NCBI GenBank assembly: GCA_012518795.1
Contig: JAAYRL010000044.1
Coordinates: 1 to 58,734 of the forward strand
Direction of reading: 5' to 3'
Source of the DNA: Clostridiaceae bacterium
GTDB lineage: Bacteria; Bacillota; Clostridia; Saccharofermentanales; DTU023
Length of the DNA: 58,734 bases
Positions 17,852 through 57,551 of this stretch are shown here, piece by piece. The notes under the pieces are model-generated. The model was not told the origin of the DNA and did no database searches. It saw only the letters and a list, made by a program, of their open reading frames with translations. The position numbers and the translations under genes were made by a program. How positions within the stretch are numbered: position 1 is the stretch's first letter; each line of letters opens with the position of its first letter.

Positions 17852-18955
17852 TTATCTGCGTAAGGGGAGTACCAGATAAAGAAATTGTTCATCTTCTAAA
17901 GGTTTGATTAAACAAGGACCAAACGTTCCGGAAAATTCAAGATAAATATTTTCCACCGGAATATTGCGTAAAGCATCCAAAAAGTATTTTGGATTATAAT
18001 CCGCATCAATATTTTCTCCTTCTAAATTAATAGGAATTTCTTCATGAACTTCACCCAAATCTGTTTGTGATGAAATGACCAGAGTTTCTTTGTCTGTATT
18101 TTCTATGGTAACCGGGTAGCGTCTTTGTTCGACATTAATTACTAACGAAGCTCGATCAATGGCATTTAACATATCTTTAGTTCTCAACTTCACTTGACTC
18201 ATCACTTCGTTTGGCACAACTTTATTATAATCCATATATTCACCTTGCAATAATCTTGAAACAAGCTTTACTGCACCGGTATCAAATAATATATGATTAT
18301 GTGAAGGATAAATTTTAACCGGATTGTCAGTCGGATCCAATATTCCCGAAACTTCTTGCATCGCTTTTGCAGGAACAATAAAGGACATTGCTGGTAATTC
18401 TTCTTTAAATACTTCTCGTCTTATAGCCAAACGAAAACCATCAATAGCAATTAATTCAAGCTTATTATTATCTGCAACAACTTTTATTCCATTCAAAATC
18501 GGTCTGTTTTCATCTGAACTTGCCGCAAAAATGGTTTGATTTATCATATCTTTCAATACACGTTGAGAAACTTGCATCTGTTCAGCTTCTTCAACAATCG
18601 GAATCTTAGGATAATCATCTGCTTCGATTCCTTTAATCTTGAATTGTGCTTTTCCGCTTGTTATTTTAATTACATAATTTGCTTCTACTTCGAGATTTAC
18701 TATTTCTTCCGGCAGTTTTCTCACTATATCACCGATCATTTTCGCATTTAATACCACTTTTCCGGGAATTATTACATCTGTATCAATTTTACATTCAATT
18801 CCCGTTTCTAAATCATATCCGGTTATTGTTAAAGTATCACTTTCTGCTTCGAATAATAAACCATCGAGAATCGGCAGGGTAGAGCGGGTGGCTATAGCTT
18901 TTTGTGCCATAGAGATTGCATCGTTTAATAAATTTTTAGAGCAGATAAGTTTCAT
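17852..18955 (-). CDS. dnaN: DNA polymerase III beta subunit (sliding clamp)
   Basis: A 367-residue clamp with the normal three-domain length. It begins MKLICSKNLLNDAISMAQKA and continues with RSTLPILDGLLFEAES, both typical of domain 1. The C-terminus ends FLYLVLPLRR, corresponding to the conserved P-M/L-R-L/R tail that shapes the clamp-binding pocket. It has a strong GAAAGGAAAG ribosome site. It is separated from dnaA by 369 bp containing repeated 9-mers proposed as DnaA boxes. Confidence 0.95.
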   Translation of the reverse strand: MKLICSKNLLNDAISMAQKAIATRSTLPILDGLLFEAESDTLTITGYDLETGIECKIDTDVIIPGKVVLNAKMIGDIVRKLPEEIVNLEVEANYVIKITSGKAQFKIKGIEADDYPKIPIVEEAEQMQVSQRVLKDMINQTIFAASSDENRPILNGIKVVADNNKLELIAIDGFRLAIRREVFKEELPAMSFIVPAKAMQEVSGILDPTDNPVKIYPSHNHILFDTGAVKLVSRLLQGEYMDYNKVVPNEVMSQVKLRTKDMLNAIDRASLVINVEQRRYPVTIENTDKETLVISSQTDLGEVHEEIPINLEGENIDADYNPKYFLDALRNIPVENIYLEFSGTFGPCLIKPLEDEQFLYLVLPLRR

Positions 18956-19324
18956 ACACTTTCCTTTCTGATAAATAGTATTGATATTTTCTTATTAATT
19001 TAATAATTACTCATATTGTTAACAATTTGGTAATTTAACAAAAATAAAACTCTTTGTTTTATAAAATTTTTCTAACAATATTTATTATACTATTTACTTA
19101 ATTAGTATTCATCCTCTTATTATATACTGTTGATACTGTTAATAACTAACTTTAAACATTGGTTTAATAATCTTCTTGTATGTAAAGAACTATGTTAAAA
19201 GAGTGCCAATAACTTTTTTGTTTTTAACGTAATCAACATTCGAATTTTTATTAACAATTTTAAGTCTTTTTTCAACACTTAGTTTTTCACAAATGATGAT
19301 AGATTTGTGAAAAAATCTAGAAAA
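18956..19324. other. Candidate oriC segment between dnaA and dnaN
   Basis: A 369-bp AT-rich region with no gene. It contains TTATTAACA 9-mers exactly at 19137-19145 (minus orientation) and 19248-19256 (plus), plus near matches at 19017-19025 (palindromic TTGTTAACAA) and 19128-19136 (GTATCAACA, directly abutting the 19137 copy). I find no canonical TTATCCACA box. The arrangement, with box clusters on both sides of dnaA, mirrors the bipartite B. subtilis origin. The box identity is an inference; the positions of the 9-mers are direct. Confidence 0.6.
19283..19314. repeat. Perfect 12-bp inverted repeat just after dnaA
   Basis: TTTTTCACAAAT (19283-19294) pairs with ATTTGTGAAAAA (19303-19314) around an 8-nt loop, beginning about 10 nt after the dnaA stop. 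No T tract follows on the dnaA strand, so it is a poor intrinsic terminator. Each arm contains TTTTTCACA, two changes from a TTATNCACA DnaA box, in opposite orientations. Confidence 0.6.
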
Positions 19325-20671
19325 TTAAATAGGTGAAAGACGTAAATTAATTTCTTTAATTGAATTAACCAACTCTGAATTATTATCTAATTCTTCTTTA
19401 ATTCTGTCACATGCATGCATTACTGTAGCATGGTTTTTATTTCCGAAATCGTTGCCTATATCTTTGTATGTCATATTGAGCAAATTGCGACAAAGATACA
19501 TGGAAACCTGACGAGGTTGAACAATTTCTTGACTACGTTTTTTTGATTTTAGATCATCAACAGTTACATTAAAATAATTAGCCGTAACATTCATAATTAA
19601 TTCAGAATTCAGACTTTTAACAGAATGAGGATCAATTTGATCTTTCAAAGCTTTTCTGGTTGAAGCGAGATTAATTCCTCCACCGAGCATCGAATAAGCA
19701 TAAATTGTTTTAAAAGCGCCTTCGAGTTCACGAATATTGGATGAAATATGAGTTGCTATATAATCAAAAACTTCATCGGGCCAATCAACACGATGAGCCT
19801 GCGCCAATTGAAGCAGGATCGCAATTCTCGTTTCATAATCAGGTGGATTAATGTCAATCGTAATACCGCTTGAAAAACGAGTTTTTAATCTTTCTTCAAG
19901 AGTAATTAATGATTGTGGAGGCTTGTCACAAGTCATCACAATATTTTTTCCAACTTCATATAAAGCGTTAAATGTATGGAAAAATTCCTCTTGCATTCTT
20001 TCTTTATTTTCTAAAAATTGAACATCATCAATTAACAATAAATCGGTCATCCGATACTTATTACGGAAAGGTTCAAATTCTTTTAGTCTGATAGCTTCAA
20101 TAAACTCATTGATAAAATTTTCAGAATTTACATAAATTACGTTTTTATCGGAAAAATTATCTTGAACATAATTTCCAATTGCATGCATTAAATGAGTTTT
20201 GCCAAGACCTGAACCGCCATAGAGGAATAAAGGATTGTAATTATTGCTATTTTGCAAAGAAGCAACAGCAACACAAGCCGCATGAGCAAAGCGATTACCT
20301 GAACCTACAACAAATGACTCAAATGTGTAAGCAGGATTTAATACATCATTTGAAATATAAGATGCTTCTTCGTCCTCTTTGGTTAGAATGTTTTGTTTTA
20401 GATTTTGTAAATTCTCTTTAGCATTAATTTCAACTTTTACATCAAAAGTCTTTTGTGTTGCAAGTTTAAGAGCGGTACTAATCATGTCCTTATATTGAAC
20501 TACAAAATCACGTGAAATTTCATTCGGTACAGATAAAACAAAAGTGTCATCATTATAAAGCATGGGAATTATGGGTTTCAACCAAGTAGTATATGTGAGT
20601 GTTGGAACTTCTTTTTCGAGATAATTTTCACATACATTTTGCCAAATAACGTGAGCGTTTTGTTCTTGCAT
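19325..20671 (-). CDS. dnaA: Chromosomal replication initiator DnaA with a divergent DNA-recognition motif
   Basis: A 448-residue DnaA. Domain I begins IWQNVCENYLEKEVPTLTYT. The AAA+ Walker A is LFLYGGSGLGKTHLMHAIGN, and Walker B is DLLLIDDVQFLENKERMQEE. Sensor and arginine-finger regions follow. In domain IV the helix-turn-helix signature, usually GGRDHTTV, reads GNKNHATV at residues 410-417: the Asp and first Thr that contact bases in E. coli (D433, T435) are Asn413 and Ala415 here, while His414 is kept. The ribosome site is GAGGGGG, 4 bp before ATG. dnaA is flanked on both sides by clusters of the 9-mer TTATTAACA. No rpmH lies upstream, unlike most Bacillota. Confidence 0.97.
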   Translation of the reverse strand: MQEQNAHVIWQNVCENYLEKEVPTLTYTTWLKPIIPMLYNDDTFVLSVPNEISRDFVVQYKDMISTALKLATQKTFDVKVEINAKENLQNLKQNILTKEDEEASYISNDVLNPAYTFESFVVGSGNRFAHAACVAVASLQNSNNYNPLFLYGGSGLGKTHLMHAIGNYVQDNFSDKNVIYVNSENFINEFIEAIRLKEFEPFRNKYRMTDLLLIDDVQFLENKERMQEEFFHTFNALYEVGKNIVMTCDKPPQSLITLEERLKTRFSSGITIDINPPDYETRIAILLQLAQAHRVDWPDEVFDYIATHISSNIRELEGAFKTIYAYSMLGGGINLASTRKALKDQIDPHSVKSLNSELIMNVTANYFNVTVDDLKSKKRSQEIVQPRQVSMYLCRNLLNMTYKDIGNDFGNKNHATVMHACDRIKEELDNNSELVNSIKEINLRLSPI

Positions 20672-20959
20672 ATATCCCCCTCTTTTCTTAATCGTTAAAC
20701 TATACTAACAGAAATAAACTTCAGGTAAAAGTTGTAAAAATACAGAAGAAATGTAATAAAAATCAGTTTTTTCAACATTATTAATCTTTGCATAAAATGT
20801 TAATAGTGTTAATAACTTGATAATAACTGAACAATTCAAGCAAAAAATACGTGAACAATGTTAATAAGCCTATGAAATAATGTTAACAACTTTATGAATA
20901 TTATGAATATAGTTTTTTGTAATATAAAAAAAATATTTAATACAAATAGATAATAGCAA
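20672..20959. other. Candidate oriC segment upstream of dnaA
   Basis: This 288-bp AT-rich region should hold the dnaA promoter. In minus orientation it carries TTATTAACA exactly at 20807-20815 and 20859-20867, CTATTAACA at 20798-20806 directly abutting the first, and TTGTTAACA at 20881-20889. The abutting 9-bp pair has the same geometry as the pair at 19128-19145 on the other side of dnaA. These are proposed DnaA boxes for autoregulation and initiation. Confidence 0.6.
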
Positions 20960-21715
20960 TTAATCCATACTCTCTAATTGAGTTTTTTCTGACGGATATT
21001 TATGTTTTAATTTAGCTAAAAGATAGTTAAATTTTTTGATCTGGATTCGAAATAATTCCAAGTCAAAATTTGTGTCAACATCTCTTAATAAATTCTCAGC
21101 TTGATCAATTTCTTTTTGTAATAATGTTTTTTGTTCCGGGTTGAGGGTTTTATTATTGGTTAAATGTTTTGTTAAGGAATTTATTCGCTTTCTTAGATTA
21201 ATGACATGAGAGATTACGATTCTGTCTTGAGTAAGTTCATTAATTAATTTGTCAAAAGTAAAATGATAGTTGTTTTTGGTAGTAACTGCTTTTAGAGGAA
21301 ATCGTGGATATTTTTCATTACGAATCTTTTCTAAAAAATTTTCGACTTGATCACGTGAAAAACCGGAAAAGAATAAAATGTTATCTGTTTGTTGTTTTTT
21401 ATGTTGATATCCTTTTGATATTGGACTGCGCTCATTTCCTTGCTTATTTGTTTTTTCTAAATGAACCAAAATTTGTGAAATGGTTAATGAAAAATCTTCG
21501 TTTTTGATTAAATAAAAAGGTATTTTTTCCGAATTTAAAAAATTTATGAAACAAGATTTTTTATTTTTATCTGAATCTTCTGAATCTTCGAAATCTTCTG
21601 TTTCCGGAAAAAAAACAATCAGCCCAAACGGCGTATCAAAAACAGGTTTGCTGGTTTGGATTGCTTGATCTGTTAAATTACCAGAAATTTCAGTTTTTTC
21701 TTTTTTATCAATCAT
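20960..21715 (-). CDS. DUF3783-domain protein next to dnaA
   Basis: A 251-residue soluble protein of unknown function. Residues about 110-165 match the DUF3783 pattern: ILFFSGFSRDQVENFLEKI, then FPLKAVTTKNNYHFTFDKL and INEL. The N-terminus has a PFGLIVFFPETE strand followed by an acidic Glu/Asp/Ser run. The C-terminus is a predicted helical hairpin rich in Lys, Leu and Gln. It lies 34 bp downstream of the cardiolipin synthase gene and probably shares its transcript. No role can be assigned. Its place directly upstream of dnaA, where rpmH normally lies, is notable. Confidence 0.6.
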   Translation of the reverse strand: MIDKKEKTEISGNLTDQAIQTSKPVFDTPFGLIVFFPETEDFEDSEDSDKNKKSCFINFLNSEKIPFYLIKNEDFSLTISQILVHLEKTNKQGNERSPISKGYQHKKQQTDNILFFSGFSRDQVENFLEKIRNEKYPRFPLKAVTTKNNYHFTFDKLINELTQDRIVISHVINLRKRINSLTKHLTNNKTLNPEQKTLLQKEIDQAENLLRDVDTNFDLELFRIQIKKFNYLLAKLKHKYPSEKTQLESMD

Positions 21716-23402: not shown

Positions 23403-23750
23403 TTAATATACTTTCTGATTCTCAGAATTTTTGACAGCTTCCGAGGCTGTGTTCATATTTATTCGACTATATTCTAACACAAGTTTTAATAGAGTCTAAT
23501 TTGTTCATAAATATCTTTAATTTAACCCGGCTGTAATGAACCTGATAAATGATGAGAACCATCTTTTAATTCAACTTATAAATATAAAATTAGAGATCCT
23601 GAAAGAATGCAAACAGATTATTCTGTGGTTTTGGTTACTAAAAAAGATTAGGACTCTGTTATACTACTAAGAAATAAATCAATACAAATAATAATTTATA
23701 AATTGGATAAAGATTCGAGTAACAAATAAAAATTAACAGGGGGTAATTTT
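23403..23750. promoter_or_regulatory. Divergent intergenic region, cls and VOC gene
   Basis: This 348-bp gap should contain promoters for the leftward cardiolipin synthase and rightward VOC genes. The only clear signal is a GGGGGT ribosome site before the VOC start. No RNA gene or repeat of note is visible. Confidence 0.4.
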
Positions 23751-49159: not shown

Positions 49160-49250
49160 GGAGGGATGGTCGAGCTGGCTGAAGGCACCGGTCTTGAAAA
49201 CCGGCAAGGGCGCAAGTCCTTCGTGGGTTCAAATCCCACTCCCTCCGCCA
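49160..49250 (+). tRNA. tRNA-Ser (anticodon UGA)
   Basis: A 91-nt tRNA with a long variable arm. The acceptor arm GGAGGGA pairs with TCCCTCC, discriminator G, and CCA is encoded. The anticodon stem ACCGG/CCGGC-type helix presents the loop CTTGAAA with anticodon TGA. The T arm contains GTGGGTTCAAATCCCAC. It decodes UCA and, by wobble, other UCN codons. Confidence 0.97.
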
Positions 49251-49415
49251 TATTACAAATTTTCTGAAACAGAAAAAAGCGAAATTGTGCTAGGTAAATT
49301 GCTAGATATCTAATCTATATAAATTGCTGAATAGCGGTATGTATAAATTGCCAAAAATGTATATAATATGATTATTAAGATATGTTTATATGTTTTGGTT
49401 TAATATTCATCACAC

Positions 49416-49505
49416 GGAGAAATACCCAAGTGGTGAAGGGGACGGTTTGCTAAACCGTTAGCAGGGGCGACCCTGGCGAGGGTTCAAATCCCTCTTTCTC
49501 CGCCA
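49416..49505 (+). tRNA. tRNA-Ser (anticodon GCU)
   Basis: A 90-nt serine tRNA with a long variable arm. The acceptor GGAGAAA pairs with TTTCTCC, discriminator G, encoded CCA. The anticodon loop TTGCTAA carries GCT for AGC/AGU codons. The T arm has GAGGGTTCAAATCCCTC. It is followed 6 bp later by a strong terminator. The genomic island begins just downstream, and tRNA-Ser 3' ends are common integration sites, though no second att copy is visible in this window. Confidence 0.97.
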
Positions 49506-49511
49506 CACTTT

Positions 49512-49552
49512 GTCCGAAAACGCTGAATTTACAGGGTTTTCGGACTTTTTTA
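49512..49552 (+). terminator. Terminator after the tRNA-Ser genes
   Basis: GTCCGAAAAC (49512-49521) pairs perfectly with GTTTTCGGAC (49536-49545) around a 14-nt loop, followed by TTTTTTA. It ends the tRNA transcript. Confidence 0.95.
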
Positions 49553-49660
49553 TGCTTATACAATTTTACTATGAATTATCTTATGCGGAACGATCCTTAC
49601 AGTTGATGAAGGTTGGGCAAAATGTATGATTGTGCAATATATTTATTTAATGTACTTAGA

Positions 49661-49785
49661 CCTTTTCAACACGCGTCAAACTGCGATAATGCGTCCAGCT
49701 TAATTCGCTACGCAGCGCGTAGCCATTTGGAGAGATTTCTATATAGGTCAGCATAGCTTGTAGTTTCGTTTTCGATATTAATCAT
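49661..49785 (-). pseudogene. Fused stub of an AbiEii start and a YhcG N-terminal fragment
   Basis: On the minus strand an AbiEii-like start, MINIENETTSYADLYR, begins at 49785. It is joined out of frame to a fragment encoding PNGYALRSELSWTHYRSLTR (49730 leftward), the conserved N-terminal motif of YhcG/DUF1016 PDDEXK nucleases. The same two elements occur in the same order at 54.7-55.0 kb, so this is a second decayed copy of an abiE-yhcG segment. The rest of the 326-bp gap after the tRNA terminator shows no gene. Confidence 0.7.
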
Positions 49786-49831
49786 GAAAACGTGGTGAGA
49801 AGTAGGCCGTTTTATTATTCTGCTTGTTAGT

Positions 49832-50227
49832 TTAGTTTTCTTCTTGATCGGTAAAAGCATTATTTAAATTGACTGTTGGAATGATTATCGGTTGGTTACC
49901 GTCTGCCGCCGAAATAAAAGAAATTAAACTCCTTACATAGGGAATTAAAATAGATGCAGCAATTATATGCAATGCATGTTCATTTTCTAGTTTTTTTAAT
50001 TCCTCGTTCGCAGTGAAGAATCCGGAAACAATGACTTCTGAGGTAATAGCACCAGAAATATTGACTTTCAAATCGGCTTTTAATTCGTTTTTGTTATCAG
50101 GATTGAACATAATTTCAACCCCTAAATCTATACTAAGTGTGGTAGAAACCTCGTCGTTTTCCGAAAAGTTTCTTTCAAAGAAAACTTTATTAATTTGGTA
50201 TGCGTTAAAATCTACTGCAGCAGTCAT
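49832..50227 (-). CDS. SecB-like chaperone of a toxin-antitoxin-chaperone system
   Basis: A 131-residue SecB-fold protein. The N-terminal strands (FNAYQINKVFFERNF) and the C-terminal signature LIPYVRSLISFISAADGNQP followed by IIIPTVNLNNAF match SecB-like chaperones. Low-GC Gram-positives generally lack housekeeping SecB, and such genes occur next to type II toxin-antitoxin operons, where the chaperone protects the antitoxin. Here it is third in a hicA-hicB-secB order, starting 9 bp after the HicB stop with GGGAG before ATG. The Asp/Glu-rich tail (DQEEN) is typical. It is likely a tetramer that binds the HicB C-terminal tail; this is inference. Confidence 0.8.
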   Translation of the reverse strand: MTAAVDFNAYQINKVFFERNFSENDEVSTTLSIDLGVEIMFNPDNKNELKADLKVNISGAITSEVIVSGFFTANEELKKLENEHALHIIAASILIPYVRSLISFISAADGNQPIIIPTVNLNNAFTDQEEN

Positions 50228-50236
50228 ATTATCTCC

Positions 50237-50704
50237 CTATATTGCTCTTTGTAACGGCAAAACTTTCTCGCCAAAAGATCCCTTCTCCCAATCTACATCT
50301 GACTTTTTTGTAGAATTATCGGTTGGAAGACTATAATTAATGTGAAAGTGAACTGTGTTTTTTTGCTTAGACTCACCTAAGCCAAAAGCTAATAATTGGC
50401 AACAATATTGATTCAGACTGACACCTTCATTTTCTGCTTGTATTACTAGATCCTTATGCAAAGAACTAGTCGTTCTAATTAGTATCTTTCCGTTATATTC
50501 TTTACTATAAAGATTTTTAGGCTTAGGATAAGAATTATGCTCTTCAAAATAAACATCTAACCATAATTCTTTTGCTAATTCTCCATCAGCTAACGCTTCT
50601 TCAGGAGTATCACCAACTCCGGAACATCCGGGCAAGTCCGGAAAAGCACAAATCCAATCTCCCTCGTATTCAAATAAACGATATTCGTAGTTGTAGTTTT
50701 TCAT
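50237..50704 (-). CDS. HicB-family antitoxin with a 45-residue C-terminal tail
   Basis: A 155-residue antitoxin. The N-terminal HicB fold has YEGDWICAFPDLPGCSGVGD and TPEEALADGELAKELWLD, the partial RNase H-like domain. A ribbon-helix-helix domain follows (KILIRTTSSLHKDLVIQAEN, SLNQYCCQLLAFGLG; residues about 72-110). Most HicB proteins stop there. This one continues for 45 residues including the aromatic NTVHFHINYSLP. The gene lies between hicA (14-bp gap) and the SecB-like gene. The tail is the natural candidate for a chaperone-addiction segment. A 97-bp copy of part of this gene is found at 57660-57756. Confidence 0.9.
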   Translation of the reverse strand: MKNYNYEYRLFEYEGDWICAFPDLPGCSGVGDTPEEALADGELAKELWLDVYFEEHNSYPKPKNLYSKEYNGKILIRTTSSLHKDLVIQAENEGVSLNQYCCQLLAFGLGESKQKNTVHFHINYSLPTDNSTKKSDVDWEKGSFGEKVLPLQRAI

Positions 50705-50718
50705 AATATTACCCTCTT

Positions 50719-50970
50719 TTAATTGTTATCTAAGATATCTAAAGCTTGCTTAATTTGATACACTGAAACATGTTGACTAGCCCTTTTGCCGTGCGGTACA
50801 GTGACAGTTACAATACCCCTCCCTTTGAACGTGTAAACATAGTGCGATCCAGGTTTTTGCGATCTTCTTAATTCGAATCCATTGTTTGTTAAAAATTTTT
50901 GAAATTCTGCGAAGCGTAAATCTTTAGGTAATGATCTTACTCTTTTGTCAAGCTTGTCTTTTGAACTCAT
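50719..50970 (-). CDS. HicA-family mRNA interferase toxin
   Basis: An 83-residue dsRBD-fold RNase toxin. The core is NNGFELRRSQKPGSHYVYTF with the catalytic His in GSHY, then VTVPHGKRASQHVSVYQIKQ. The N-terminus is about 20 residues longer than minimal HicA. It has a good GGAGAG ribosome site and a perfect 22-bp palindrome directly upstream. It is the first gene of hicA-hicB-secB. A 161-bp segment of this gene (50723-50883) is duplicated at 53727-53887 with one base change. Confidence 0.9.
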   Translation of the reverse strand: MSSKDKLDKRVRSLPKDLRFAEFQKFLTNNGFELRRSQKPGSHYVYTFKGRGIVTVTVPHGKRASQHVSVYQIKQALDILDNN

Positions 50971-50982
50971 TTTTTCTCTCCG

Positions 50983-51004
50983 GTGATATTATATATAATA
51001 TCAC
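50983..51004 (-). promoter_or_regulatory. 22-bp perfect palindrome at the hicA promoter
   Basis: The half-site GTGATATTATA is followed by its exact reverse complement TATAATATCAC, ending 12 bp before the hicA ATG. It contains TATAAT- and TATATT-like -10 hexamers. It is a likely autoregulatory operator for the HicB ribbon-helix-helix domain. Confidence 0.8.
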
Positions 51005-51062
51005 TTTTTATAGATAATATGTTAACAATTTTAATTCTTATAACAAATATTACATAAAAAAG

Positions 51063-51155
51063 TTAACATTCATAATGTTTTTGCAGTTTATTAATTCCTA
51101 TTTTCATCCTAAATATTTCATCCCAAATAGGTTTAGCAGTTGATATTTTAGCCAT
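51063..51155 (-). CDS. Possible 30-residue peptide with consensus ribosome site
   Basis: On the minus strand a 30-codon frame (MAKISTAKPIWDEIF...LQKHYEC) has AAGGAGGT 7 bp before ATG, one of the best ribosome sites in the window. The site itself can pair with an upstream CTCCTCCGTTAAGGAGG-type hairpin, which would hide it. It lies between hicA and abi, opposite and next to a candidate small RNA on the plus strand. No homologue is recognised, and it is not hydrophobic like type I toxins. Confidence 0.35.
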   Translation of the reverse strand: MAKISTAKPIWDEIFRMKIGINKLQKHYEC

Positions 51156-51189
51156 TAAAAGACCTCCTTAACGGAGGAGCTACTTATGC

Positions 51190-51269
51190 TATAATAGCGT
51201 TGTAGCCTCAGTGTTACACTTTTAGCCAATTCCGCGTTATGGTGATGTAAGGGAGTTGGCTATTTTTTT
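51190..51269 (+). ncRNA. Candidate small RNA with its own promoter and terminator
   Basis: TATAAT at 51190-51195 (weak TTAACG -35 at 16-bp spacing) is followed about 28 bp later by the hairpin TAGCCAATTCC (51223-51233) with GGAGTTGGCTA (51252-51262, one G-U pair) and seven Ts (51263-51269). No protein gene runs rightward into this hairpin, so it would end an RNA of about 65-70 nt. The promoter lies head to head with the 30-codon frame on the other strand. Confidence 0.45.
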
Positions 51270-51300
51270 GTACTAATTTTTCTTTTATGTCAAATTAATC

Positions 51301-52311
51301 TTAATATCTATTTTCCATCTGTTGTGTTTTGGTGTATTTTATTGCACGGTCAATGAAGTCGATTGGTATTCCCGAGAATTTACTGTATATATCCCAAATC
51401 TCACTATTTCTATTTTGATTTACCGTTATGTCTATCAGTTGACTAAGTTCAAGTAAAAACGTTTGTATTTTATATTGATCACCTAATAACATTATAATTG
51501 AAAGAATCATTGCATATGCATTTCTTCCTATATCGGCTTTTCTAAAATCTGAACCTTTTATAAAAGTATTATTGAAAAGAGGTCTGATTTTTGAATATGA
51601 AATCTGTTTCTTGGATCCAACCTTAAAAGTCATGAATTTCCCTGGATGAGCAATTTTGTTTCTAAATTTTCTTACGATAAACAAAGAGTTAGAAAATATT
51701 TCTTTACGATATTTGTTGTTTATTTTAGAACTCAACAATTCATTCACAACATAATCTTTGTCTTCTGTCTTTAAGAAGCTGTATAAATCACTACAATCAG
51801 ACCAATACGCATTTTTGAATAAGATCCATGCTGGAGTATGGTTATGGTTATTATTATAATGATGAGATGGCTGATCTGGATATCTTTTATTTGTTATTTG
51901 TTTTAGTCTTTTCATAGCTTGATTAAATATATTAGACTGAGACTTATTTTGAGGTTGCATATAATGTTTTTTATTCAAATAATCATCCGCATGAACACCA
52001 TATTGCATAGAGATTCTATATGCTAATATATTTTTAAACCTTGTTTCGACATAAACACTATATTTAAACAAGATATTTTGAAAGTCTCTATCAAACTCAT
52101 GAAAACTATATAAATATTCTATAGAATATCCAGGTAAATACCTTTCATTGCTATCTTGAAAACATTCTTTATAGCCGTTTATTAAATCATAATAAGATAG
52201 ATTTTTTAATGCTTCTTTCGCAAAATTATCATCATTAATTTCTAATCCATGTCTGTCTTTTAAATGTTGAATCTGTTGTTCAAACGTTTTAAAGGGTTTA
52301 TTGTATGACAT
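51301..52311 (-). CDS. Abi_2/AbiF-type HEPN RNase-like abortive-infection protein
   Basis: A 336-residue Abi family protein. The N-terminus KPFKTFEQQIQHLKDRHGLE and LKNLSYYDLINGYKECF are the standard opening of Abi_2 proteins. A mid-protein AYWSDCSDLYSFLK segment follows. The HEPN catalytic motif R-x4-H is at RKFRNKIAHPG (Arg217, His222). HEPN Abi proteins are RNases that shut down the cell on phage infection. Related AbiF-type toxins are reported to be controlled by a structured RNA, and such an RNA candidate lies directly upstream (52327-52402). The ribosome site GGAG begins only a few bases after the RNA's U-rich end. The start is ATG at 52311. Confidence 0.85.
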   Translation of the reverse strand: MSYNKPFKTFEQQIQHLKDRHGLEINDDNFAKEALKNLSYYDLINGYKECFQDSNERYLPGYSIEYLYSFHEFDRDFQNILFKYSVYVETRFKNILAYRISMQYGVHADDYLNKKHYMQPQNKSQSNIFNQAMKRLKQITNKRYPDQPSHHYNNNHNHTPAWILFKNAYWSDCSDLYSFLKTEDKDYVVNELLSSKINNKYRKEIFSNSLFIVRKFRNKIAHPGKFMTFKVGSKKQISYSKIRPLFNNTFIKGSDFRKADIGRNAYAMILSIIMLLGDQYKIQTFLLELSQLIDITVNQNRNSEIWDIYSKFSGIPIDFIDRAIKYTKTQQMENRY

Positions 52312-52326
52312 ATATACTCCAATAAA

Positions 52327-52402
52327 AATAGGGCTTCCACCATTACTGATAGAATCCCTATTGACGGTCTGAAACTTAATCCTAGACCACGTATCTATCA
52401 GT
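52327..52402 (-). ncRNA. Candidate abiF-like structured RNA upstream of the Abi gene
   Basis: Read on the minus strand: outer arms CTGATAGA (52401-52394) and TCTATCAG (52353-52346) pair perfectly; inside, GGTCT (52388-52384) pairs with AGACC (52370-52366). AATAGGG (52362-52356), inside the outer helix, pairs with CCCTATT (52333-52327) beyond it, forming an H-type pseudoknot, and TTTATT follows. Conserved structured RNAs next to abiF genes are known (abiF motif); the match here is by position and architecture, from memory. If transcription starts at the usual distance from the -10 at 52403, part of the outer 5' arm would be missing from the RNA, so the start point matters. Confidence 0.6.
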
Positions 52403-52431
52403 ATATTAACAAAAAATGATTAATATTTCAA
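52403..52431 (-). promoter_or_regulatory. Promoter of the Abi-associated RNA
   Basis: On the minus strand TTGAAA (52431-52426), 17-bp spacer, TAATAT (52408-52403). An alternative -10, TATACT, is 2 bp further downstream. It lies just past the stop of the upstream 133-residue gene, so the RNA has its own transcription start. Confidence 0.65.
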
Positions 52432-52434
52432 TAA

Positions 52435-52836
52435 TTATTCTTTAATAATCATAACTAAATCATTTAAATTTATAGTAGGCTCAACTTTCCATTCTCGCCC
52501 AGATATCTGTTCTTTATTGACGTCAAGTGGTATAGATTCGGTTTTTGTTGCTGTTAATGGATTCATAATTGCTGAAAAACTTTTAATTAGTGGAGATACT
52601 GACCTGTATTTGCGACAAACAGAGAATTTTTCTAAAGCACTTACTATTTCAAGTTCATCTTTTATTGCGTCGAAAGTACCGAGACTATTTCCTGATTCCG
52701 GATCTGTTACAGGTTCTCCAATTATGTAAATGGCAACCTTATCACCTTTTTGGGCTCCATCAACATAGCCATAATTAATAAGAATTTCTTTTTCATTCAT
52801 TATTTCAATTACTTTATACCCTTTGATAATTTCCAT
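52435..52836 (-). CDS. Hypothetical protein, FlgT_C-like beta-barrel
   Basis: A 133-residue soluble protein. INYGYVDGAQKGDKVAIYII, PVTDPESGNSLGTFDAIKDE and LEIVSALEKFSVCRKY form the alternating strand pattern of small beta-barrel domains that define an opening, a D-P-E-S/T-G turn and a closing strand, similar to the C-terminal domain of FlgT. No catalytic residue stands out. GAGGT precedes ATG. It is upstream of the Abi RNA and gene in the same direction. Function unknown. Confidence 0.6.
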   Translation of the reverse strand: MEIIKGYKVIEIMNEKEILINYGYVDGAQKGDKVAIYIIGEPVTDPESGNSLGTFDAIKDELEIVSALEKFSVCRKYRSVSPLIKSFSAIMNPLTATKTESIPLDVNKEQISGREWKVEPTINLNDLVMIIKE

Positions 52837-52934
52837 ATTAAAACCTCAAATTTCTTCATTAACATCACCAGGGTTGTGACATTTTGCCTATTTCTCAGTT
52901 GATTGCTGGTCGGTGAGAGGTAGGCTTTTTATAT

Positions 52935-53540
52935 TTATTTAGTAATCTTAAAAGTAATCGCTTCTCTTCTATTTAACTCAATAATAATTTCTATTTCTTT
53001 CCAATCTTCAGGAACTTCTAAGCCATAGGTTCCTTTAAGCTTTTTACCAGGGACTATCTTTCCGTCAAGAGTACTTTCATCACTTTCAATTAGTGCTTTA
53101 AGACTATTTTTTGCAGCATAACCATCAACATATGCATCAACAGACATTATGCTACTTATAACAATATCTTTATTTGAATTATTTTCAATTTCAAACACGG
53201 GCAAGACAAAAACTTTTCCGTCATCAGGCTTATTGAATTCTGAACCGGTATCTTCTACAACATATTGAAGAGTTATCAAAACATCTTTTTGTTCGGCAGT
53301 TTCTCCGATTATAAAGAAATCTTTTTCTTCTTCGGTTTTCTCTGTTTCTGCCTCGGTTTCTTTTTCTGTGTTCTTTTCTTCAGCAGTTTCTGTTTGCTCC
53401 GTTTTATTATCTGCTTTTTTAGTGTCTTTATCTTTGTCTTTTTTATCTCCAAAAGCGTTAGCCAGTGCAGCTGCTACCACAACGACGATAATTACCCAGA
53501 CCCACCATTTCTTTTTCTTTTTTGTTTGTTGATTATCCAT
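52935..53540 (-). CDS. Membrane-anchored DUF4352-like protein
   Basis: A 201-residue protein: a basic N-terminus (TKKKKKWWV), one transmembrane helix (VWVIIVVVVAAALANAFG), an extracellular Lys/Glu/Thr-rich stalk of about 45 residues, then an immunoglobulin-like domain of the DUF4352/telokin type with GKVFVLPVFEIENNSNKDIV and SSIMSVDAYVDGY. Such proteins are common on clostridial surfaces and in mobile elements; the ligand is unknown. No lipobox Cys is present, so it is anchored by the helix. Confidence 0.7.
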   Translation of the reverse strand: MDNQQTKKKKKWWVWVIIVVVVAAALANAFGDKKDKDKDTKKADNKTEQTETAEEKNTEKETEAETEKTEEEKDFFIIGETAEQKDVLITLQYVVEDTGSEFNKPDDGKVFVLPVFEIENNSNKDIVISSIMSVDAYVDGYAAKNSLKALIESDESTLDGKIVPGKKLKGTYGLEVPEDWKEIEIIIELNRREAITFKITK

Positions 53541-53561
53541 AACATTATTACTCCAATTGTT

Positions 53562-53726
53562 TTATTCTACAGGCGTAGTCCAACCGACTACCAAACCTAA
53601 TATTCTTATATCGTTCTTCTTTGTTGCAATAATATCTTCATAATCTTCGTTTATAGAACGCAAGATTAATTGATCTGTTTCAAAAATAATTCTCTTAATA
53701 TATGTCATGCCGTCAACTTCAACGGC
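53562..53726 (-). pseudogene. C-terminal fragment of an S24-family (LexA/CI-like) repressor
   Basis: The minus strand encodes VDGMTYIKRIIFETDQLILR, SINEDYEDIIATKKNDIRIL and GLVVGWTTP before a stop at 53562. This is the end of an S24-peptidase repressor, where the Lys-containing K-R-I-I strand and R-I-L-G-x-V-V-G-W terminus are typical. The helix-turn-helix and the active-site Ser region are missing. It is cut at 53727, exactly where the duplicated hicA fragment begins. It is a relic of a phage or integrative element. Confidence 0.75.
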
Positions 53727-53902
53727 TTGTTATCTAAGATATCTAAAGCTTGCTTAATTTGATACACTGAAACATGTTGACTAGCCCTTTTACCGTGCGG
53801 TACAGTGACAGTTACAATACCCCTCCCTTTGAACGTGTAAACATAGTGCGATCCAGGTTTTTGCGATCTTCTTAATTCGAATCCATTAATATCATAATTC
53901 AC
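53705..53902 (-). pseudogene. Truncated duplicate of hicA
   Basis: 53727-53887 is a copy of hicA positions 50723-50883 with one base change in 161. It encodes the entire catalytic core with the His of GSHY but lacks the first ~28 residues, and a foreign MNYDIN start replaces them. The C-terminus reads through into the S24-repressor fragment in another frame (KPLKLTA). There is no ribosome site. It is a recent duplication, probably inactive, though the core might still fold. Confidence 0.85.
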
Positions 53903-53985
53903 TTATTGCTATAAAACCAAATTGATTAGGAAGGTCAACCATTTGTCAGACAGTTTTCGCTGGGTGGATTGGTTTGACTACTCGG

Positions 53986-54815
53986 TCAATTTCTTTTTTG
54001 CTCATCGATATAATTTTCTATTGATAAATACCCTTTATTTAATTCATTTAACAGTTCTTTTTCACTTGGCAGATACAATTTATATTTGGATGCAAATATT
54101 TGTTTTTCATCTTCAGGCAATGTGTATTTTACAACCGAATCACTTTTATCAGCACATGAGATAATACCTATAGGCGGATTATCTCCCTCATTCATCATTT
54201 CTCTTTCATAATAATGAACATACATTTGCATTTGTCCTAAATCTTGGTGTGTTAAATCTCCAATCTTCAAATCTATTAAAACAAAGCATTTTAAAATATA
54301 GTTATAGAAAACAAGGTCAATCCTGAAATGCCTCCCGTCAAATGTAAATCTTTTCTGCCTTGCAACAAAAGAAAAACCTCTGCCTAATTCTAAAAGAAAT
54401 TTCTGTAAGTGAGTTATTAAGGCCTGTTCCAAATCACTTTCATAAAAATCGGTATTTGGCTCTAAACCTAAAAACTCCAACACATACGGATCTCTTATGA
54501 TGTCTTCCGGTGTCTTGCTTTTCTCCAGTTTCAGTATTTCTTTTGATACTTCTTCTTTATTTTGGCTTGATAACAGTCTTTCATAGAAAAAGCTGTTAAT
54601 TTGTCAGTCAAGCTGTCTCGTACTCCAATTGGATTTTATGGCTTCCTCTAAATAAAATGTCCTTGCCTTTTCATTTTCAACACGTATCAAACTGCGATAA
54701 TGCGTCCAGGTCAATTCGCCACGCAGTGCGTGACCATTTGGAAATGTAAGATAAAATTGACGCATATATTTTAAATTTGTAACTGTAAATCCTTTACCGA
54801 AATCAATTCTCCTAT
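53986..54815 (-). pseudogene. yhcG: Broken YhcG/DUF1016 PDDEXK nuclease gene
   Basis: The minus strand encodes, in one frame, FGKGFTVTNLKYMRQFYLTF, ELTWTHYRSLIRVENEKAR, NWSTRQLD, a TGA at 54606-54604, then KTPEDIIRDPYVLEFLGLEP, RIDLVFYNYILKCFVLIDLK and GQMQMYVHYY. The family has Arg at the TGA position (R-Q-L-D-R-Q-I), so it is a CGA-to-TGA change. The nuclease motif (FRIDLVFY...LIDLK) is intact downstream. The true N-terminus (about 60 residues) is also degraded. From 54815 to 54985 there is no recognisable gene. Confidence 0.85.
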
Positions 54816-54984
54816 AACATTATATATTTTTCTACTCCACCTTCGTCTTGTCCTATATGTTCGACATTTTTAACTAATCCGTTTTTGACATTCTAATAAA
54901 ACCATCTACCAATCAAAGCCGGTGGGGTTGCGATGATATCTTGTAAGACAAATTCGTTGTTTTAGGTAATTTCTCTTTTTTCTA

Positions 54985-55023
54985 TCAGATTTTATTTCCC
55001 TTTATGCTTTCGATATTAATCAT
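54985..55023 (-). pseudogene. 12-codon stub of an AbiEii toxin gene
   Basis: An ATG overlapping the AbiEi stop (T-C-ATGA) begins MINIESIKGNKI and then stops. It corresponds to the usual start of AbiEii nucleotidyltransferase toxins translated from the overlapping codon. The rest of the toxin is gone. Confidence 0.65.
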
Positions 55024-55607
55024 GAAAGCACCTCCGTATATTGTCTGATTTTATCTTCTATTTTGAATTTTCTGCTATATTTGATGAGTTTTCTTAAGTC
55101 TTTATCTTTTCTTTTAAAATACGTAATAAGTCCATCCGTGAAAATTTGCTTATCAAGTTTTTCTCTTTCATGGATAATATCGCAAATACATCTTTCCATA
55201 TCGTAAACCTTAACAGAGTTCCCAAGAGGTGTTTTGATTTCTGATATACCAATCGGAAATAAATCCTTTTTCACATAGTGAACTTGCAGATTTTTGTATC
55301 TTTTTTTGATATGGCTTGCATTATAACCTTGAGGTACAGAGATGTGAAAAATGTTCGGTGTGCGGTCAGATAAATCATGGAGATAGAGAGCTGTTTGATA
55401 CGAAAAAACAACTCTATCGCTATTAGATGAAATAAGAATAAAATCATCTACAATTTCCCCGGACTTTTGATATACTCCCGGTCTTATCCTTTCAATTTTT
55501 CCTTTATTGGCTAAATCTGACAGGATATGTCGGCCTATTCCCATGTTTTCAGCATCTTTATTTGTGATTACAAGATTGTCTTTTAAATACTGTCTTAAGA
55601 TTTTCAT
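55020..55607 (-). CDS. AbiEi-family type IV antitoxin (orphan)
   Basis: A 195-residue antitoxin. The N-terminal winged helix is NLVITNKDAENMGIGRHILS and ANKGKIERIRPGVYQKSGEI, where G-x-I-x-R-x-x-x-G-x-Y is the family signature. The C-terminal AbiEi domain has VFSYQTALYLHDLSDRTPN, the conserved tyrosine-His-Leu core. AbiEi represses its operon and counters the AbiEii nucleotidyltransferase. Here the overlapping toxin gene is reduced to 12 codons, so this antitoxin is alone. It has an AAGGA site, with a possible promoter TTTACA-17 bp-TACGAT upstream. Confidence 0.85.
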   Translation of the reverse strand: MKILRQYLKDNLVITNKDAENMGIGRHILSDLANKGKIERIRPGVYQKSGEIVDDFILISSNSDRVVFSYQTALYLHDLSDRTPNIFHISVPQGYNASHIKKRYKNLQVHYVKKDLFPIGISEIKTPLGNSVKVYDMERCICDIIHEREKLDKQIFTDGLITYFKRKDKDLRKLIKYSRKFKIEDKIRQYTEVLS

Positions 55608-55781
55608 ACAGGCATTTCCTTACATTTTCGCTTTAATCGTACAAAATCAAAGCAAATTTGTAAATAAGAGAAATAATTAAAATCTAAGGACTTCTAAAAA
55701 GTAGAATTATTTAACGTCTTCTTTCGAAATTAATATCTGTTTGTTTCTAATATTAGTTTTCAAATTTTTGCTAAAATAGCC

Positions 55782-55809
55782 CTCCCGAATATTGTGCGAA
55801 ATTCGGGAG
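55782..55809. repeat. 28-bp palindrome, downstream copy
   Basis: CTCCCGAAT (55782-55790) and ATTCGGGAG (55801-55809) form a perfect 9-bp inverted repeat with a 10-bp centre. A sister copy at 56554-56581 lies at the promoter of the DUF6088 gene. The two share 22 or more of 28 positions and bracket that gene and its toxin stub. The rest of the 55608-55832 gap shows no gene. Confidence 0.8.
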
Positions 55810-55832
55810 ACTTTGATTATTTAATTTACTTG

Positions 55833-55934
55833 CTAATCCTTTTCTACAACAGCTTGAGATATACCCATTTTTGTAGCTGTATTTATAATTAATATTTCTA
55901 AATCTTCTTTCGATTCTATTAAAAATTTATTCAT
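55833..55934 (-). pseudogene. 33-codon stub of a nucleotidyltransferase (AbiEii-type) toxin
   Basis: An ATG overlapping the end of the DUF6088 gene begins MNKFLIESKEDLEILIINTA and continues TKMGISQAVVEKD, the conserved N-terminus of AbiEii/AbiGii toxins (usually followed by a Trp-Val/Tyr strand), then stops at TAG. The entire catalytic domain is missing. Confidence 0.75.
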
Positions 55935-56538
55935 TTTCGTCCTCACAAATTACTCTTATAACTTCATAAATCCATGCTGTTGTGGAAGTTGCTTCTCTAA
56001 GTAGGTTTTCTTTATCTGCTTTTGATAAATTTTGTTTTATTTTCCGAATATCATCTTCGGTAATTTCGTCTTTTCCCAATGCTTTTATAGCCAGAATAAC
56101 AGTAGCTGTCTTCAAACTCATATTAGCAATTTCGCTTGGTTTTACTTTTTTAAATTCGATTTTATTATTGCCAATTTCGTATTCAATATATCTGCCACTT
56201 GAAATAAATGTCCACTTACTCGGAACTTGTGTAGATAATCCTAAAAGGTTGAGAGCGGTACTATTATATGGAGCAATATCCCAATTGTATTTTCGTGCAA
56301 TAGCAATCGCCAATTCATACATAGAGGGTTCTTCATATTCGCCGATTAATTCACTATATCTCGGACGATAATAAAATCCATTGATGATTCGTTTAATTTT
56401 GTTTTCTTTTACCAACTGATTTAATGTTCTGCGAACAGTTTCATTGCTTGCTATATCTAAAAAATCATTAGAGATAAAGACTTTACCTTTATCCATATCA
56501 TCAATTCGATTTTTAATTTGATTAATATAAGTAGCCAC
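55927..56538 (-). CDS. DUF6088/AbiEi-like type IV antitoxin (orphan)
   Basis: A 203-residue antitoxin-like protein. An N-terminal winged helix (VFISNDFLDIASNETVRRTL, KENKIKRIINGFYYRP) is followed by the conserved ELAIAIARKYNWDIAPYNST and LNLLGLSTQVPSKWTFIS. DUF6088 proteins pair with AbiEii-type nucleotidyltransferases. Here the partner starts on the overlapping codon but is truncated after 33 residues. A 28-bp palindrome covers the promoter just upstream, a likely operator. It is full length with no frameshift, so it is retained while its toxin decayed. Confidence 0.8.
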   Translation of the reverse strand: MATYINQIKNRIDDMDKGKVFISNDFLDIASNETVRRTLNQLVKENKIKRIINGFYYRPRYSELIGEYEEPSMYELAIAIARKYNWDIAPYNSTALNLLGLSTQVPSKWTFISSGRYIEYEIGNNKIEFKKVKPSEIANMSLKTATVILAIKALGKDEITEDDIRKIKQNLSKADKENLLREATSTTAWIYEVIRVICEDENE

Positions 56539-56553
56539 TATTTCACCATCTTT

Positions 56554-56581
56554 CTCCCAAATATTGTATCATATTCGGGAG
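56554..56581 (-). promoter_or_regulatory. 28-bp palindromic operator of the DUF6088 gene
   Basis: CTCCCAAAT and ATATTCGGGAG form an imperfect inverted repeat about 15 bp upstream of the DUF6088 start, with a -10-like TACAAT inside on the minus strand. It is the upstream partner of the copy at 55782-55809. Confidence 0.7.
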
Positions 56582-56709
56582 GATTTGTGTTTTGAGTGTA
56601 TTTTCATGAAATATAGCTTTCTTCTTTTAAGAATTGGTAATTCAAACAATTTAGACAGTTTATTAATCCGAAGAAATTTATCTTGTTTAATTAGACTCCA
56701 AATTTGTAA

Positions 56710-56799
56710 TCAAAAACTTTCTATAGGAATTTCTTCTCCGTTATCTAATTGCTTTATGAGATGCTTAGCTATTTTTCTGTATCCTTCAATATGTTTCAT
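56710..56799 (-). CDS. Possible small ORF or decayed gene start (29 residues)
   Basis: MKHIEGYRKIAKHLIKQLDN and EEIPIESF form a 29-codon frame with AGGAG 10 bp upstream. The same frame continues after its stop with plausible protein sequence, so it may be the broken start of a longer gene. No family is recognised. The rest of the 423 bp between the DUF6088 and Fic regions shows nothing else. Confidence 0.25.
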   Translation of the reverse strand: MKHIEGYRKIAKHLIKQLDNGEEIPIESF

Positions 56800-56961
56800 T
56801 ATGTTTGTTCTCCTAGAAATCTTCATAGTCTTAAAATGGAGCGGGGAGAAGAGAAACAGGCAGTAACCTTCTCCCCAATATGACTAATTTCGATAGTAGT
56901 TATGAAAATTGTTATGATTTTTTCACTGTCTGCTAATTCGGTTTTTTCTGCTTTCAATAAT

Positions 56962-57551
56962 TTAATTGTCTGCTACTATATTAATATCTAAATTTCTTGC
57001 TACTGCTTTCATTTCCTCTATTTCTTGTAAACATACAAATCTATAAAAAGCATCCGGAGATGGATTTTGTTTTTTTTGAGCTAACTGAATTGAATTTATG
57101 TACTCACTTCGAAGTATTGGCGGAATAGAAATCGGCAAGTAGCCGTTTCGGATAAGGCTTAAATTAGTTAATAGTCTGGCTGTTCGACCATTACCATCAA
57201 CAAAAGGATGTATCCTTACTAATTCTAAATGCAGATATGCAGAAAATATAACCGGATGCAATGTAGATTCTTCTTCTTTAATTGAACTAATAAAAGTATC
57301 CATTTCTTTAGGTACATCCGAAAAAGACGTTGGTACAAAATCAGTTCCGGTTATAAATACATTCTCTGATCGATATTTGCCGGCAGCATTTGCATCAATT
57401 AATTCATAAAATATTTTGTGTAAATGCATGATTACTTGTTCATCTATTAATTCTTTAAGAATGATTTAGTCATTGGTCTATGGGTATCTAAGGCTTTTTT
57501 ATATTTATCTATTTCAGATAACATTTGCATTAGTTGTTTTGAATTAAGCAT
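56962..57551 (-). pseudogene. Fic-domain AMP transferase gene with internal deletion
   Basis: The 3' part (56962-57429) encodes the Fic core with intact catalytic loop LVRIHPFVDGNGRTARLLTN. A separate 5' piece (57551-57447) encodes LMQMLSEIDKYKKALDTHRP and MTKS, the usual Fic N-terminus. About 80 residues normally found between them, including the region with the inhibitory (S/T)xxxE(G/N) helix, are missing, and the junction is out of frame by one base. The catalytic fragment could start at the ATG at 57429, but no ribosome site is visible. Probably inactive. Confidence 0.8.

Follow-up and report, generated by a model that had tools for sequence, protein, structure and literature searches.

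The family to which this genome belongs has probably changed the DNA word read by the initiator protein DnaA: loss of Asp433 and Thr435 from the recognition helix on the family's stem would have shifted its box preference, and its binding sites at three places (oriC, a three-box element, and the tsaD-smpB gap) would have followed. Here, f1 is the family and g1 (or f1g1) the genus of the window, meaning the whole stretch of 58,734 nucleotides that was analyzed, and f2, f3, and f4 are other families of the same order; A6 and C6 give the base at box position 6.

The region around dnaA in this uncultured Clostridia-type bacterium is a bipartite chromosomal oriC, as the sequence-only reading had proposed, with boxes on both sides of the gene and a flip of the GC skew. 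The skew passes from ca. −0.13 to positive values at dnaA, with the cumulative minimum at 23,528, and the gene order dnaA-dnaN-recF-gyrB is standard (gyrB was identified by reading its sequence, and the other three by profile search). Exact copies of TTATTAACA occur four times in the two gaps flanking dnaA and nowhere else in the window, together with the one-base variants that had also been noticed (Table 1). From the dinucleotide makeup of the gaps, 0.098 exact copies would be expected, and 0 of 5,000 simulations gave four or more. An abutting pair had been described on each side of the gene; both pairs are present (CTATTAACA/TTATTAACA at 20798-20815 in the upstream gap), but downstream of dnaA the partner of the exact box, GTATCAACA, differs from TTATTAACA at two positions. 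The canonical TTATCCACA is indeed absent from both gaps, its sole copy in the window being located at 1241, within a kinase ORF.

The consensus box TTATNCACA has C at position 6, where all four exact boxes of the window have A, and the window boxes match it at the remaining fixed positions (TTAT..ACA). The change from C to A at this position therefore stands, but it is not the only one, since position 5 has also changed, from C to T. Throughout the genome, TTATTAACA is found 68 times, against 124 for its reversed control pattern, and is not simply a common word because it is rarer than this control. The genome-wide count, which had been proposed as a check, showed it to be concentrated at oriC, with 4 of the 68 copies in the ca. 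0.04% of the genome represented by the dnaA gaps; the copies beyond oriC are scattered, save for a few small clusters. TTATCCACA has 23 copies genome-wide and 0 at oriC.

Table 1. Coordinates of the features described; positions refer to the window unless a contig or locus is given
Feature	Position	Strand	Remarks
dnaN	17852..18955	-	TIGR00663; bounds the downstream gap
Downstream half of oriC (dnaA-dnaN gap)	18956..19324	.	20% GC
Palindromic TTGTTAACAA	19016..19025	.	One-mismatch TTGTTAACA on both strands, starts 19016/19017
AT-rich block after the downstream pair	19083..19127	-	Kept in the genus and partly across the order
Abutting pair TTATTAACA/GTATCAACA	19128..19145	-	Exact TTATTAACA member at 19137-19145; pair conserved in the genus
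Exact TTATTAACA box	19248..19256	+	Word search
dnaA (448 aa)	19325..20671	-	TIGR00362, 505 bits (cutoff, 344)
Codons of DnaA residues 410-417	19421..19444	-	Start of the recognition helix; GNKNHATV vs GGRDHTTV (E. coli, B. subtilis)
Upstream half of oriC	20672..20959	.	21% GC; array in register in six genus members
CTATTAACA box	20798..20806	-	One mismatch; abuts the 20807..20815 box; conserved in the genus
Exact TTATTAACA box	20807..20815	-	Word search
Weak site TTATTATCA	20818..20826	-	One mismatch; partly conserved in the genus
Exact TTATTAACA box	20859..20867	-	Word search; conserved in the genus
TTGTTAACA box	20881..20889	-	One mismatch; TTATTAACA in some relatives
Three-box element	G000 contig C10:10234-10263 (L200:2035-2064)	-	Intergenic, beside an RlmL-like methyltransferase gene
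Predicted DnaA-box cluster, second outside oriC	L201:2017-2124 (G000 contig C16)		tsaD-smpB gap, downstream of tsaD

Immediately upstream of oriC, where many Bacillota carry rpmH, there is a gene for a DUF3783 protein (20960-21715). At 49160-57429 of the window the GC skew is negative again, and two tRNA genes are followed by genes for HicB, Abi_2, YhcG nuclease, AbiEi-type, DUF6088, and Fic proteins, possibly a defense or mobile island.

In the genus, the four upstream boxes keep their register and A6 in all six members in which dnaA was found (the window's own genome included), whereas the sequence between them varies. Conservation extends to the downstream pair and the adjoining AT-rich block, and other families of the order also have the ATAATAAGA-type core of the block in the corresponding position behind a box pair. 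This block is a candidate unwinding element or dnaN promoter. It has no clear CTA/TTA triplets and remains only a candidate for unwinding because DnaA-trios do not stand out in it, unlike in the Bacillus and Clostridium controls, where those of the CTACTA type do at this place.

The DnaA of the window, which gives the genome's only match to the Bac_DnaA_C domain, carries the helix motif GNKNHATV exactly as first read. By alignment, its Asn413 and Ala415 correspond to D433N and T435A in E. coli numbering (in the E. coli sequence used, the numbered residues fall where the literature places them), and the canonical combination of Asp433 and Thr435 is not matched. Besides, P423 is replaced by Lys, and the equivalent of Arg399 is kept. 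Base-specific contacts have been assigned to residues 399, 423, 432 to 435, and 438 to 439 (PMC5043019), and D433, called highly conserved, has been placed at box position 7 (PMC8235120). Helices of f1 read NHATV (one NHTTV), those of f3 DHTTV (one DHSTV), and those of the f2 genus g8 (f2g8) KHTTV, KHSTV, or THSTV; family f4 is mixed, with DHTTV, HHSTV, HYTTV, HYSTV, and one DHTTT. Written in full, an f3 motif is GNRDHTTV and an f2g8 motif GGRKHTTV. Since f1 and f2g8 stand apart in the DnaA tree, which was midpoint rooted and has some long branches, Asp433 would have been lost at least twice. Few further N433 DnaAs were found with a degenerate NHATV pattern, which misses GNKN types.

The A6 shift at oriC is real but graded between genera. 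A template-free search gave TTATTAACA as the top 9-mer at the oriC of f1g1 (23 observed versus 0.66 expected), TTATCAACA (31 versus 0.26) and TTATTAACA (21 versus 0.24) in f1g3, whose oriC flanks have 38 to 50% GC, and TATTAACAT together with TTATTAACA in f1g6. The same search returned TTATCCACA/TTTTCCACA for the DHTTV family f3 and TTATCCACA for genus g4 (GGRNHATV); the top enriched words of f4g14 include TTGTCCACA, and f2g8 carries TTTTGAACA, the same type as in its three-box element. Fractions of A6 boxes at oriC were 0.84 in g1 and g3, 0.68 in g6, 0.58 in g7, 0.50 in g5, 0.30 in g4, and 0.18 in g2, with 0.32 in f3. Canonical DH genomes reached 0.47 below 28% GC and 0.23 to 0.28 at 28 to 50% GC; at matched GC (below 50%) the values are 0.63 to 0.84 for f1 versus 0.23 to 0.47, a comparison in which Fisher tests count boxes and not independent lineages and thus do not express phylogenetic significance. 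Despite having the NHATV helix, g2 and g4 carry mostly C6 boxes at oriC. Among canonical (GGRDHTTV) Bacillota with enough boxes, 11 of 99 genomes were A6 dominant, and the canonical genomes with TTATTAACA boxes are mostly AT-rich Clostridia. The other N433 DnaAs of the class are mixed (13 A6 versus 9 C6), and His433 lineages keep CC boxes.

Outside oriC, a tandem TTATTAACA pair met on contig C10, among the genomic clusters of this word, turned out to be part of a three-box element, TTATACACA-N3-TTATTAACA-TTATTAACA, with spacing fixed at 3 and 0 bp and a single orientation. It is nearly invariant in 7/7 genomes of the genus, with differing flanks, and has upp on its far side in four of these loci. 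When boxes 2 and 3 were allowed either A6 or C6 without preference, the search pattern matched 105 of the order's 148 genomes, in most cases at a single site but often at two in f3; its reversed control gave no match. In the tally of boxes 2 and 3, entered by hand from the table of matches, C6 was found in 97/98 across f3, f4, and the f2 genera other than g8, all with Asp or His433 where DnaA was read, in all but eight of the genomes. Among these f2 genera, g407, g409, g410, and g411 carry elements of the TTATCCACA or TTTTCCACA type. In f1 (Asn433), A6 was found in 62/70, always preceded by T or C, and in f2g8 (Lys/Thr433) in 61/76, preceded by G. Box 1 is C6 in 35/35 f1 genomes, mostly TTATACACA, and box 2 of g4 is TTATCCACA. 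The gene rlmL and/or upp adjoins the element in most f1 loci examined and in the one f2g8 locus examined, and neither is next to it in the two f3 loci examined. Because the f3 neighbors differ and f3 often has two copies, we regard these as the same kind of element and not as proven orthologs. The element is likely a DnaA control or titration site and may be of the DARS/datA type. Within f2g8, only G704 has TTATCCACA boxes in the element (contig C36:19790-19819), which may reflect a binning error or a reversion.

The gap between tsaD and smpB holds three or four regularly placed C6 boxes in f3, TTTTTAACA/TTATTAACA boxes, mostly A6, in f1g1, and mostly C6 boxes in g4 and g5. Several boxes just downstream of tsaD are present in g1, f3, f1g4, and f1g5 and absent or nearly so in several other groups. 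B. subtilis has a strong non-oriC DnaA cluster downstream of gcp (= tsaD), in the gcp/ydiF region, and another upstream of ywlC (PMC4447404). The genome of the window shares the cluster downstream of tsaD, but here the neighbor is smpB and the boxes are A6; the three-box element might be related to the ywlC site, but this is no more than a suggestion.

A joint change of helix and box, as the sequence-only reading had supposed, is supported at the level of lineages: within the NHATV family the change affects several DnaA-site loci that are independent of one another, and the second lineage losing Asp433 also shifted at position 6. As a strict one-to-one code (NHATV = A6) it is rejected on account of g2, g4, and the canonical Clostridia; g4 is a refuting case of the kind that the sequence-only reading had set, with the canonical box both at oriC and in box 2 of the element. 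That the same base changed within one lineage in several site families on different contigs suggests a change in their common reader, DnaA, and not in each site separately. Only two shifted lineages, f1 and f2g8, are independent of each other, and if one residue is to be singled out, 433 is the strongest candidate because it is altered in both, Thr435 being kept or replaced by Ser in the second; its causal role and the change in affinity are what we infer from the sequences. T435A is probably not needed, since the f2g8 members seen keep Thr435 or Ser435. P423 is an unlikely determinant, as E423 occurs with A6 (f2g8) and with C6 (f4g14). Loss of Asp433 alone is insufficient, given that His433 lineages keep CC, and residue 433 is not the whole story, with g2 and g4 lagging and box 1 exempt as well.

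In the mechanism that we favor, domain IV of DnaA would bind the tandem 9-mers in both gaps and the protein would open AT-rich DNA beside the dnaA-dnaN pair, as expected from the biology of the family. On the f1 stem, Asn would have replaced Asp433 and Ala would have replaced Thr435 in the recognition helix, so that DnaA came to prefer boxes closer to TTATYAACA than to TTATCCACA, and the sites at oriC, in the three-box element (by the RlmL-like gene and/or upp), and at tsaD-smpB would then have gone to A6, to a degree that depends on the genus. In the second lineage, Lys or Thr at 433 would pair with TTWTGAACA boxes. In a chemically plausible reading, the amino groups of C6/A7 would donate hydrogen bonds to Asp, A6:T would be favored by Asn or Lys, and G5 would be favored by Lys. 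A more ambitious version, in which residue 433 sets positions 5 and 6 (CC for Asp/His, YA for Asn, and GA for Lys/Thr), the sites, those of the three-box element included, were rewritten to match in two lineages within a single order, and the mixed genera are a transition under way, is put forward tentatively, as we find it somewhat easier to doubt than to accept.

Specificity might have been relaxed and not switched, with canonical DnaA tolerating A6 and a weakened selection for C6 letting the boxes drift. The A6 boxes of canonical Clostridia, the persistence of C6 in box 1, and the mixture of A6 and C6 in g2, g4, and g5 would fit, but we consider this unlikely, since the upstream boxes and the element of the window's genus have A6 without exception while the flanks diverge, the shift persists at 38 to 50% GC, and f2g8 converges on one other word, GA, where drift would give mixtures. 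An AT mutation bias with no role for the helix is improbable: f1g3 and f2g8 shifted at ordinary GC, and G042, a DHTTV genome with flanks of 26 to 27% GC, keeps TTATCCACA in boxes 2 and 3 of an element-like match, even if the gaps have 20% GC and A6 does rise in AT-rich canonical genomes. As for the repeats being −35 promoter sequences or binding sites for a regulator other than DnaA, TTAACA resembles TTGACA and there is a TATAAT near the downstream pair; we give this very little credence in view of the abutting tandem 9-mers that flank dnaA, where the skew switches, and of the 3- and 0-bp spacing of the three-box element, which matches that of TTATCCACA tandems in sister clades.

The origin shares with the bipartite oriC of other Bacillota (B. 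subtilis; C. difficile, PMC7561715) the AT-rich DNA, the skew switch, and the clustering of boxes both ahead of dnaA and between dnaA and dnaN, and differs in its A6 boxes and in that no DnaA-trio of the CTACTA type is clear behind the pair. The identical 9-mer, TTATTAACA, has already been published upstream of dnaA in Mycoplasma hominis, M. mobile, and M. arthritidis (PMC2751442). It is reported there only upstream of dnaA, and the passage cited does not tie it to a helix change, whereas here it lies on both sides of the gene and at other loci. Box preference differs along with recognition-helix residues in Epsilonproteobacteria (PMC5043019), and altered boxes with an altered domain IV are described for Thermotoga maritima (as cited in PMC6669920). 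Position 5 (T) or a 12-mer is involved there, and Asp433 is called highly conserved, while here Asp433 is lost and position 6 changes. An open-literature search, not an exhaustive one, found no paper that ties an A6 shift to residue 433.

Few protein-DNA pairs of bacteria are as conserved as DnaA and its box, which raises the question of how specificity can shift while initiation is retained. Having changed at least twice, with sister clades that did not change and more than one independent family of sites to compare, this order offers a natural test case for the choice of sites by DnaA, testable with small proteins and oligonucleotides. In practice, origin finders that rely on TTATNCACA will under-call such genomes.
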